A stretch of 64,000 nt of DNA from Promethearchaeia archaeon (lineage in GTDB: Archaea; Asgardarchaeota; Lokiarchaeia; Sigyniarchaeales; SOKP01). The notes under the pieces were generated by a model that was not told where the DNA came from, did no database searches, and saw nothing but the letters and a program-made list of their open reading frames with translations. A program made the position numbers and the translations under genes. The DNA lies in NCBI GenBank assembly GCA_029856045.1, contig JAHQWG010000053.1, forward strand, positions 1 through 64,000, in the 5' to 3' direction. Positions 20,376 to 40,398 of the stretch are shown piece after piece. Positions within the stretch are counted from its first letter, which is position 1. Each line of letters starts with the position of its first letter.

Positions 20376-21458
20376 TTATCTTAAATTTCCCCTCAAATAA
20401 GCTGATAAATACTTCTCATATAATAACTTAAGGCTTGTCGGTATTGAAGTAGCGATAGCACATCCTAATCTGCATCTATCACAAAAATTATAATCATCAT
20501 GCTTTTCCATAATTTCATATACTTCTTTAGATCGATATATTTTAGAGAGAGGTATCTTTAAGGCATTTAAACTATATAATGGGTGAAGCTTGCAGGGATA
20601 ATCTACTTTTCCATCTTGTCTCACAAAGATGTAAGATCTGGCAACATGACACCTTAAAAAATTTTGATAATAAGCTGGAGCACCACCAAATCCTCCATTT
20701 TCTATTATCAACACTGTATAGAGGTCAGTTACCATATTAGAATATTTCTTTCGTAATTTTAAGACATTAGAGCCCCATATATTAATATCTGGAATAAAAT
20801 CATTAATATTTTCTATTCTATAAACCTTACCATTAATCTCCCGTATAATATCTTCAACGGGTAATATTTCTATTGTACAATTTAAATCGTTTGCTAGAGA
20901 AACCATATCCTCCATTAAATTAAGATTTTCTTTCATAACAACAGTAGAGATAATCACATTTATTCCTCTGTCTTGCGCAATTTTTATTCCTTCAATAGCT
21001 TTATCAAATAACTTAATCCCCCGATATCTATCATGTAATTTTGCATTAGGAAAATCAAGTGAAATCAATATATAATCTAAACCATCAAAAGGATATTTTT
21101 TAAGCAATTTCGGTAATAAAAAACCGTTAGTAGCAACACCTGTATAAAAGGAATAGTTTTTTCCAATATATTTTATTAGTTCTGGTAAATCCTTTCTTAA
21201 TGTTGGTTCCCCTCCTGTAAAAGAAACAGAATTTACTTTTAATATCTCCAATTGATCAATGATGCTTTTTACCTGTTCTGTTGTCATATTCGGTCCTAAA
21301 GCAGATTTTGGAATTGAATGAAATGTACAAAAGGGACATTTACCATTACAATCTAACGTCAGTTCAACTTGGGCGCTGTATGGAGTTGGAATATTTAGAA
21401 GATTGTTTTTTACTAAATTCTTGATGTATCGAAACCAATTAATTTTTTTAGCTGGAAT
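20376..21458 (-). CDS. Radical SAM protein with C-terminal cysteine cluster; start codon not canonical
   Basis: The cluster motif CNGKCPFC lies upstream of the first in-frame ATG (21287), so the gene must start earlier. The frame is open up to 21488 but contains no ATG, GTG or TTG there. A GAGGAAGGT ribosome binding site is 6 bases before an ATT at 21458, taken here as the provisional start. A TTTATAAA box lies just before it. After the CxxxCxxC the protein shows SFTGGEPTLR and the usual half-barrel repeats. The C terminus has a SPASM-like set (DYPCKLHP, FCDRCRLGC). It is probably an oxidoreductase or peptide-modifying enzyme; the substrate is unknown. Confidence 0.75.
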   Translation of the reverse strand: MPAKKINWFRYIKNLVKNNLLNIPTPYSAQVELTLDCNGKCPFCTFHSIPKSALGPNMTTEQVKSIIDQLEILKVNSVSFTGGEPTLRKDLPELIKYIGKNYSFYTGVATNGFLLPKLLKKYPFDGLDYILISLDFPNAKLHDRYRGIKLFDKAIEGIKIAQDRGINVIISTVVMKENLNLMEDMVSLANDLNCTIEILPVEDIIREINGKVYRIENINDFIPDINIWGSNVLKLRKKYSNMVTDLYTVLIIENGGFGGAPAYYQNFLRCHVARSYIFVRQDGKVDYPCKLHPLYSLNALKIPLSKIYRSKEVYEIMEKHDDYNFCDRCRLGCAIATSIPTSLKLLYEKYLSAYLRGNLR

Positions 21459-38053: not shown

Positions 38054-38260
38054 TTAATCATCCCCAGATACTTTCACTGGCGATTTTGATTCAATTTTCT
38101 GAACATTTGTGTAAAAATCCTTAACCTCACTTAACTCCGTTGTTACAATCGTATGCCTTGCGTGGTCTTTTTCAAACTTATTTACTATCTGAGAACTTAA
38201 GAAATTATCTGGATGAATTAGTACATACTGTTTACACTTTAAACAAGCACGTACTCGAAT
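38054..38260 (-). CDS. Conserved-looking 68-residue zinc protein, probable ATT start
   Basis: The frame encodes IRVRACLKCKQYVLIHPDN and continues to a central helix (KFEKDHARHTIVTTELSEV) and an acidic end. CLKC and the later His residues could bind zinc. It looks like small archaeal proteins of similar size that begin with a KVRA-type strand. The open frame reaches back only to a stop eleven codons upstream and holds no ATG, GTG or TTG before the CxxC. GAGGT is placed 7 bases before the ATT at 38260-38258, the same spacing as in the DUF35 gene. The start is therefore inferred to be ATT. Confidence 0.6.
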   Translation of the reverse strand: MRVRACLKCKQYVLIHPDNFLSSQIVNKFEKDHARHTIVTTELSEVKDFYTNVQKIESKSPVKVSGDD

Positions 38261-38376
38261 CTTAATTACCTCAATATAATTTTTTTAATTACACTATTAA
38301 ATATCATAAATTAAAAGGAAATAAATGTTTTGTGTCTTTAAAATTTGAAATACTATCACGAACAATTCGTTTGATT

Positions 38377-40398
38377 TTAAGATTTATTTCTAATTTTTAC
38401 ACTTTTAGATTTAATAATTCGAGAGTTCAATAAATCTATTACTGCTTTATAAACTTCTACTTTCTGTTCATTGTTCAAATTCAAAAACTCATAGAAAAAG
38501 TTATCTAATTTATATCGTAAGGGCTTAATTTGATTTAAAGTAACTGGTTCAGTCTTTTTTATTCCAATTTCATTATATATTGTATCAATAGGTGTGTCAC
38601 ACAACTTTTTAAATATCTCCTTTAATTTTTTGTAATCTTCATTTGAAATTTTATCTGGATTAATTGTCAATAACCGTCTTGCCAGAAATTCGCTGAGTTC
38701 CGCTACGGTTACCGAACCCGTAAGTTCATAGCCGGCGAGTTCATAAAAAAACCGCCCTAAAGTCGAATTCAAAAAAGAAAGTGTAATAGTTATCGCTCGC
38801 TCTGTATCTATTGCAATCTCATATAACGTTTGGTCGCTATAGATCTCCTTATTATTAAAATAAACATAGAATTTTTCCCCCATTCGTTTAGGAAACAAAA
38901 TTTGATATGGTTTCCGAACCCCCAAATCATACCAACGTTGTCGATTCTTCATTGTTCTACGATTATGGAAGCCTTGAGATTCTCCCCATTTGATATAATT
39001 CAAGATTCCCTTCTTTAAATTTTGCTTATTATCGTGAATTATAAGAACAACTTGATTTAATGACTCCGGTTTAATTTTAACATAATCACTTTCTCTTGGA
39101 CTTTTAATTAAATAATTTGGAACCCAATCATTTGACTTCTTATGCATCCAATACTCCTTCTCTATACTAAATCTCAACTGATTTGACTTTAAATCATATA
39201 ATAATAAATCCATTGTGTTAGGGTCTTTCTCAGTGTAAAAATTCCGATTCTTTTTACCCGGCGCTGGAATATAAAAAAATTGATTGGCTCCAGTAGTAAA
39301 GCCCCGCCTAAATGTGCCTATTTCTTTTAACGGAACCAAAAACTCTTTTCCTTTTTCCAATAAAATAAAATAAATATCAGGCGCTCTCAGAAATATATCC
39401 CACTTTGAACCTATATATTTGCCAACTTCTTTATCATAACCGCGATTCCAGAGATCTCCCTGGTTAATTGGGAAGATTCTAATATTATATTGCATATCAA
39501 CCTTATAATTATCCAAATCGTTAATATAATTCCAAAATGCATCATTCATTTGCCATCGTTCATTTTCACCCAAATCTTCACGTTTGTCAAAATTTGTAAA
39601 TTTACATAAAATGTTTGTTAATTTATCCCGTAATTGTATAAATTTCACAATATTACTCGAACGTTCCGATTCATTGGAACACTTCTCCAATATTATAATT
39701 ATCGTATCAACTTCTGCAAACTCAAAAAATCGCTCCACCTTCGAACCAACAATTGCCTTTATTTTGAAATTTTTTAATAAAAATTCCTGTAATTGCGTCC
39801 CATAATCAACATTGAGCCATAAATTAGGCGTAATATAACCCATAACACCAAAATCTTTTAAGAAAATACTACTATGATAAATGAAATAAGCATATAGACT
39901 GGTCCGCTTATTTATCGAAATAATATGATCTAACTCATCCTCAATTTGCAGTATTAATTGTTCTTTATATTTCATTCCCATTGAATGATTTATTTGTTCT
40001 TGGCGTGTAAAAGGTGGGTTTGCAACTAATACGTCAAATTTTGGCATCATAATTTGCTTATTATGCATTATTTTATGAAGAAAATAATTATTTTTTAATA
40101 ATTGACCTGGCTTAATTGAAAAAAAATCACCTTTTATAAGATAAGGAAAAAAGTTACTTTCATCTAAAAATAATGACGAAGGTGAAATATCAATTCCCCA
40201 AATTTTATTTTGAAAATCCTCTTGTTTCTCATTCTTTTTACTTAAATATTTTAACCGAGAATTCGCCCTTATTATAAAAATACCTTCCCCAAAACCAGGA
40301 TCTAAAATTTGTTGATTTGTTCTAAATAAAATTGAGCTTAAAATTAAATCAACAACATCAGGTTGAGTAAAAAAAAGTCCGTAATTTTTTTTTTTCAT
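38377..40398 (-). CDS. N6-adenine DNA methyltransferase (Eco57I/TaqI type), orphan
   Basis: This 673-residue protein has SAM-binding motif I (LDPGFGEGIFIIRA, near 36-49) and the catalytic NPPF (VANPPFTRQEQ, near 130). A long target-recognition region makes up the C-terminal half (SPRESDYVKIKPE, LGRFFYELAGYELTG). The methylase begins at the very N terminus, so the nuclease domain of type IIG enzymes is missing, and no restriction gene is adjacent. It would methylate adenine in a specific site, either as a solitary modifier or as a leftover of a restriction system. Start ATG at 40398. Confidence 0.82.
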   Translation of the reverse strand: MKKKNYGLFFTQPDVVDLILSSILFRTNQQILDPGFGEGIFIIRANSRLKYLSKKNEKQEDFQNKIWGIDISPSSLFLDESNFFPYLIKGDFFSIKPGQLLKNNYFLHKIMHNKQIMMPKFDVLVANPPFTRQEQINHSMGMKYKEQLILQIEDELDHIISINKRTSLYAYFIYHSSIFLKDFGVMGYITPNLWLNVDYGTQLQEFLLKNFKIKAIVGSKVERFFEFAEVDTIIIILEKCSNESERSSNIVKFIQLRDKLTNILCKFTNFDKREDLGENERWQMNDAFWNYINDLDNYKVDMQYNIRIFPINQGDLWNRGYDKEVGKYIGSKWDIFLRAPDIYFILLEKGKEFLVPLKEIGTFRRGFTTGANQFFYIPAPGKKNRNFYTEKDPNTMDLLLYDLKSNQLRFSIEKEYWMHKKSNDWVPNYLIKSPRESDYVKIKPESLNQVVLIIHDNKQNLKKGILNYIKWGESQGFHNRRTMKNRQRWYDLGVRKPYQILFPKRMGEKFYVYFNNKEIYSDQTLYEIAIDTERAITITLSFLNSTLGRFFYELAGYELTGSVTVAELSEFLARRLLTINPDKISNEDYKKLKEIFKKLCDTPIDTIYNEIGIKKTEPVTLNQIKPLRYKLDNFFYEFLNLNNEQKVEVYKAVIDLLNSRIIKSKSVKIRNKS

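Follow-up and report, generated by a model that had tools for sequence, protein, structure and literature searches.

The window, i.e. the whole stretch of 64 000 nucleotides that was analysed, is G000:C54 in a 3.34 Mb genome whose named relatives are Candidatus Lokiarchaeota MAGs. On its minus strand lies a 68-codon frame (Table 1) that is very likely a real gene, coding for a small zinc-binding protein of the C2H2 type that belongs to a Lokiarchaeal family; we regard it as started by AUU and as a member of a class of near-cognate starts that depend on a Shine-Dalgarno (SD) sequence. Initiation and zinc binding are inferred here, and no peptide, ribosome-profiling or reporter data are available. 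The frame begins ATT CGA GTA CGT GCT TGT TTA AAG TGT, and its translation, IRVRACLKCKQYVLIHPDNFLSSQIVNKFEKDHARHTIVTTELSEVKDFYTNVQKIESKSPVKVSGDD, includes a CLKC motif and runs directly into a stop codon. On the upstream side the frame is closed by a TAA, and the nine codons that follow, ending with the ATT, are AAA AAT TAT ATT GAG GTA ATT AAG ATT. Neither this gene nor its same-genus relatives have an ATG, GTG or TTG in the stretch from the in-frame stop to the conserved core. The GAGGT of the leader is separated from the ATT by the seven bases AATTAAG and can pair with the 3′ tail of the genome's own 16S, which is GGATCACCTCCT. The arrangement GAGGTAATTAA(G/A)|ATT, together with the downstream frame, is common to four genomes of the genus obtained in separate assemblies, which excludes a sequencing or assembly error for the ATT. 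Directly upstream of the gene, on the same strand, is a frame for an Eco57I-like N6 DNA methylase (38377-40398 of the window).

Table 1. Positions, in window numbering, of the two probable AUU-start genes and of the elements around the zinc-type gene
Feature	Position	Strand	Remarks
68-aa CxxC...HxxH protein, coding sequence	38054..38260	-	AUU start 38260-38258, stop 38056-38054; homologues, dN/dS 0.17-0.23
ATT start codon	38258..38260	-	aligned with the ATG of homologues; kept in four same-genus genomes
Shine-Dalgarno GAGGT	38268..38272	-	7 nt before ATT; anti-SD CACCTCC in own 16S; motif kept in relatives
In-frame TAA closing the frame upstream	38285..38287	-	read from the sequence
Possible TATA-box-like element TTTATGATAT	38301..38310	-	sequence only; similar in same-genus relatives; an inference held with low confidence
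Radical SAM/SPASM protein, second AUU-start gene of the window	20376..21458	-	ATT 21458-21456; AAGGT 21469-21465

Conservation of the zinc-type family and its start column

Of the 228 phylum genomes, 62 contain relatives of the protein, most of these in the family to which the window belongs; viral and phage relatives were looked for and none was found. Residues C6, C9, F29, H33 and H36 are invariant in the 61 aligned sequences, and dN/dS between same-genus copies stays within the range given in Table 1 for the pairs with enough substitutions. A survey of the start column over 85 distinct homologous sites revealed that the codon aligned with the window's ATT is ATG in 26, ATT in 22 and ATA in 10. 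Thirteen of the ATT/ATA sites have no canonical codon at all on the way from the in-frame stop to the core, and in three homologues an in-frame stop lies only 1-2 codons before the start (TAG GCT ATA in L011, TAG GGT ATA in L043 and TGA AAA ATA ATT in L016), so that a longer N-terminus is impossible there. Sites showing GTT or CTT in the column mostly have an ATG or a TTG one or two codons earlier. An SD is present at 18 of 24 ATT/ATA sites, mostly of the GGTG/GAGGT type and 4-8 nt upstream, and at 11 of the 26 ATG sites, where it is mostly a weak AGGA. Since the distance from GGTG to the start is 6, 7 or 8 nt among the homologues, thus covering all three frames, GGTG is in those cases a ribosome site and not an in-frame GTG start. 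One caveat is that in L045, L024, L063, L067 and L082 the SD is overlapped, at codon -3, by an in-frame GTG that is itself a possible start. On the protein tree, which rests on few columns, the ATT/ATA label changes at least nine times on supported branches; therefore switches between ATG and AUU-type starts happened repeatedly. Four points are shown for the zinc-type gene: it is conserved, it lacks a canonical start, its start position aligns with that of homologues, and it is associated with an SD.

These results bear on a preliminary description of the window, which had called the 68-residue frame protein-like, with its CLKC, and had pointed out that it has no canonical start and that GAGGT lies exactly 7 bases before the ATT. 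All of this held, the frame being conserved. As to the possibility, also raised there, that homologues might be absent or start well upstream, homologues exist and none begins well upstream: they use the same column, with ATG or, lacking a canonical codon, with ATT or ATA. The zinc assignment is weaker; it is inferred from sequence alone and rests only on the invariant CxxC...HxxH, without metal data or a library match.

The structure predicted by AlphaFold2 from the family alignment is strand-knuckle-strand-helix-strand, with a pLDDT of about 90 over residues 1-50. PDB and fold searches with the protein gave no significant match and no Pfam family covers it. The four-ligand set C6, C9, H33 and H36 is conserved as in zinc-binding proteins generally, and two Cys plus two His are also what likens the protein to classical C2H2 zinc fingers (zf-C2H2) and zinc ribbons. 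However, zf-C2H2 requires C-x2-4-C-x12-H-x3-5-H and a Pfam match, whereas the spacing here is C-x2-C-x23-H-x2-H, so that neither is met. Some genomes carry the domain as a fusion, either with two PAS domains or with the end of a long coiled coil (L032, L033, L026, L065); in the copies fused to PAS the aligned codon is ATT, but an SD is lacking. Because of these fusions, our best guess as to function is a regulatory module binding protein or nucleic acid; this is an inference, and we are inclined to doubt it more than to believe it. A second copy of the zinc gene (L036/L006, G095:C517:114-314) has a TGA where CLKC has its second Cys. Its reading as a selenoprotein was rejected, for there is no SECIS family match and other conserved residues are lost; a pseudogene is likelier.

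Probable AUU-type starts in other genes and at genome scale

In the radical SAM gene of the window, the ATG-start ORF (20376-21287) lacks the CxxxCxxC motif: the Pfam Radical_SAM domain covers residues 39-195 of the complete frame, and the first canonical codon, residue 67, is already past the motif. At its IP start the codon is ATT or ATC in 29 of 30 Lokiarchaeal genomes, with an in-frame stop 0-2 codons before it in 22 (often as TAA|ATT|CCT) and a GG-type SD 4-9 nt upstream in 26; in 11 of the 30 there is no canonical codon at all before the Cys motif. In a TrmB regulator, the domain spans residues 27-89 and the first canonical codon is at residue 66. The start column of a DRG-type GTPase is CTG in three same-genus (g1) genomes (L204, i.e. 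G000:C5:1647-2159, L205 and L206), and TTG, ATG or GTG in others. We also observed a ribbon-helix-helix-like protein, KIVTVNIPEPYINAIDKL..., at G000:C15:128008-128290, the most sensible start of which is an ATT with GGTGAT 5 nt upstream.

The translation initiation factor aIF1 (SUI1), by which the fidelity of start-codon choice is enforced, belongs here as well. In genera g7 and g8, the start position is ATT in 25 of 25 loci (L310-L334). In 24 of them, reading on from the upstream in-frame stop, one meets no canonical codon before residue 16 at the earliest, and mostly not before residues 35-81, of a conserved region of roughly 100 residues. The leader AAGGTTGTGA is nearly invariant in g7/g8 and ends 9 nt before the ATT; AGGTTGTGA stands 9 nt upstream of the start. 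One locus has a perfect GGAGGTGA at this position, by which the leader is identified as the SD. For aIF1 of the genus to which the window belongs, GTG or ATA may be the start (own locus L305, G000:C27:190751-191113).

At genome scale, 708 kb of the window's own genome was compared with about 800 kb of a same-genus genome, using conserved gene pairs in place of a first stop-to-stop frame comparison that had been swamped by shadow frames. About nine of 185 conserved pairs have no shared canonical start where the conserved region begins. A wider test considered coding frames whose first canonical codon comes 15 or more codons after the start of the coding signal, a class that includes frames without any SD-linked near-cognate codon and some probable artefacts. 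Among such start-less frames, an in-frame ATT, ATA or ATC with an SD was present in 10 of 24 in the own genome and 9 of 32 in G097. The same pattern occurred in 1 of 48 and 2 of 64 cases, respectively, in the other two frames, and in 51 of 581 and 48 of 642 inside other genes. This enrichment corresponds to P values of 3e-5 (own genome) and 7e-4 (G097), it being understood that the two genomes share genes and are not fully independent. A plain tally of SD-near-start codons over all genes shows no ATT enrichment, because the signal is diluted and becomes visible only in frames without a canonical start. In G088, from another family of the same order (277 genes), none of 11 start-less frames had an SD-linked near-cognate start; the sample is small, and it suggests that near-cognate initiation is a family-level trait, for which reason our claim is limited to the window's family. 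Three control genomes (G010, G020, G200) had too little sequence to inform. Three start-less fragments (G000:C15 25142-25313, 27175-27325 and 27328-27538), which are conserved frames split by in-frame stops and resemble selenoprotein pieces of the VhuD/HdrA type, were not counted as start cases, a selenocysteine UGA being probable.

The use of SD sequences differs sharply between the two kinds of start. At conserved canonical gene starts of the own genome an SD is found in 15 of 158, which agrees with the reported rarity of SD sequences in Lokiarchaea (PMC12993045), whereas 44 of 53 AUU-type starts of the zinc and radical SAM genes have one (P about 1e-23). The SD thus appears to compensate for a weak codon. 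A special initiator tRNA was sought by pattern, though not exhaustively, and only one CAU initiator was recognised. This tRNA (L198, G000:C27 about 220617), missed by ARAGORN, has A1-U72, the GGG/CCC anticodon stem, CAU and an intron.

Taken together, initiation at AUU, AUA, AUC and CUG with SD help looks real and conserved in this family, in the absence so far of peptide or ribosome-profiling data. The preliminary description had counted the zinc-type frame as the second such case in the window, and an independent AUU gene was indeed found, the radical SAM one. Its suggestion that AUU initiation may be real in this organism is supported by radical SAM, aIF1, DRG (with CTG) and the genome-scale test, short of direct proof, and the phenomenon is wider than it had assumed.

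Alternative explanations

One could imagine that the zinc protein is reached by -1 frameshifting from an upstream frame of 13 codons (ATG ATA TTT AAT AGT GTA ATT AAA AAA ATT ...), by means of the A-run that immediately precedes the SD. Same-genus relatives do have a short ATG frame of equal length in front of the gene, ending inside the SD, and the window has a run of seven A. However, the A-run is interrupted in L003, L004 and L005/L009 (ATAAAAATT, ATTAAGATT), distant homologues have in-frame stops 1-2 codons before their ATT or ATA, and the start column matches the ATG of homologues, all of which makes this explanation very unlikely. Another non-canonical codon of the leader could serve as the start, either the ATT at 38266-38264 or a GTA or ATT near the SD, all of them in frame and kept within the genus. 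But only 1 nt separates the ATT at 38266 from GAGGT, which leaves too little room for SD initiation, the Met of the homologues aligns at 38260, and the extension is not conserved outside the SD, so that there is again very little to recommend this reading.

It may also be objected that the frame is a decayed gene whose ATG has mutated to ATT, ATG being the commonest codon at the start column and the extra copy L036, with a stop for its second Cys, looking decayed. Against this, ATT and SD are kept in four genomes of the genus with a dN/dS of about 0.2, and the Cys and His residues of the family are invariant; we consider decay most improbable. Finally, AUU starts might be independent rare accidents rather than a lineage trait. 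Bacteria are known to use AUU initiation, and ATT appears among the possible starts in standard tables. Prokaryotic starts with AUU are nevertheless reported to be almost non-existent: in another study, only one of 61,358 reconstructed AUG starts had switched to AUU (PMC5622118). Yet accidents hardly account for 29 of 30 radical SAM genes, 25 of 25 aIF1 loci and an enrichment in start-less frames of two genomes, and this explanation too is very unlikely. We therefore retain SD-assisted initiation at the AUU itself.

A putative mechanism and its significance

In the mechanism that we propose, GAGGU would pair with the 16S 3′ end (CACCUCC) and thereby position the 30S subunit so that the P site holds AUU. 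This near-cognate codon would be accepted by the CAU initiator tRNA through pairing with the first two bases of the codon, and the inserted methionine would give a product beginning MRVRACLKC...; both the insertion of Met and a low efficiency of the start are inferred. The zinc gene would thus be one member of an SD-dependent near-cognate class (AUU, AUA, AUC, CUG) in a family that otherwise uses SD rarely. The level of aIF1 would probably tune this class, as IF3 tunes infC in bacteria, because aIF1, the rejecter of such starts in other archaea, is itself AUU-started in most members examined. It is known that aIF1 destabilises a non-AUG mRNA complex in S. solfataricus (PMC6237735), and genes with near-cognate starts should therefore respond to its level; for the zinc gene such control is again an inference. 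An AUU start on aIF1 would create a feedback loop like that of infC and IF3, but this autoregulation is suggested only by analogy.

In bacteria, infC has an AUU start with an SD and is under IF3-dependent autocontrol (Butler 1987; Brombach and Pon 1987, both cited via the reference list of PMC9845219), and the Lokiarchaeal aIF1 has the same kind of start. The two cases differ in the factor and in the domain of life, and the Lokiarchaeal class comprises many other genes; moreover, no common ancestor is assumed for aIF1 and IF3 (PMC7531240). In eukaryotes the homologous factor, eIF1, likewise restrains its own production by a suboptimal start (PMC6237735), but this is an AUG in poor context without an SD and not an AUU. 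In the haloarchaeal CreT mini-ORF, a strong SD rescues less efficient starts in an archaeon (PMC8501985); the codons concerned, however, are GUG and UUG in a mutated RNA. The literature searched yielded no paper that describes conserved AUU starts for Asgard archaea, most subscription papers being outside its scope. A bolder reading, for which we see nearly as much reason to accept as to refuse, is that AUU, AUA, AUC and CUG make up a regulated second class of starts dependent on the SD, a motif otherwise rare here, with aIF1 among its members and the inferred aIF1 feedback loop setting the whole class, the zinc protein included, as an archaeal counterpart of the IF3/infC and eIF1 loops.

Familiar gene finders allow only ATG, GTG and TTG. 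For that reason conserved genes of this lineage, a translation factor among them, are truncated or missed, as the preliminary description had foreseen for the zinc-type frame. Cells may control AUU-type genes through their weak start codons. If aIF1 is AUU-initiated, then IF3 in bacteria, aIF1 in Lokiarchaea and eIF1 in eukaryotes would all limit their own synthesis by means of a poor start and, if true, this shared self-limitation would bear on the evolution of start-codon selection around the time at which eukaryotes arose.
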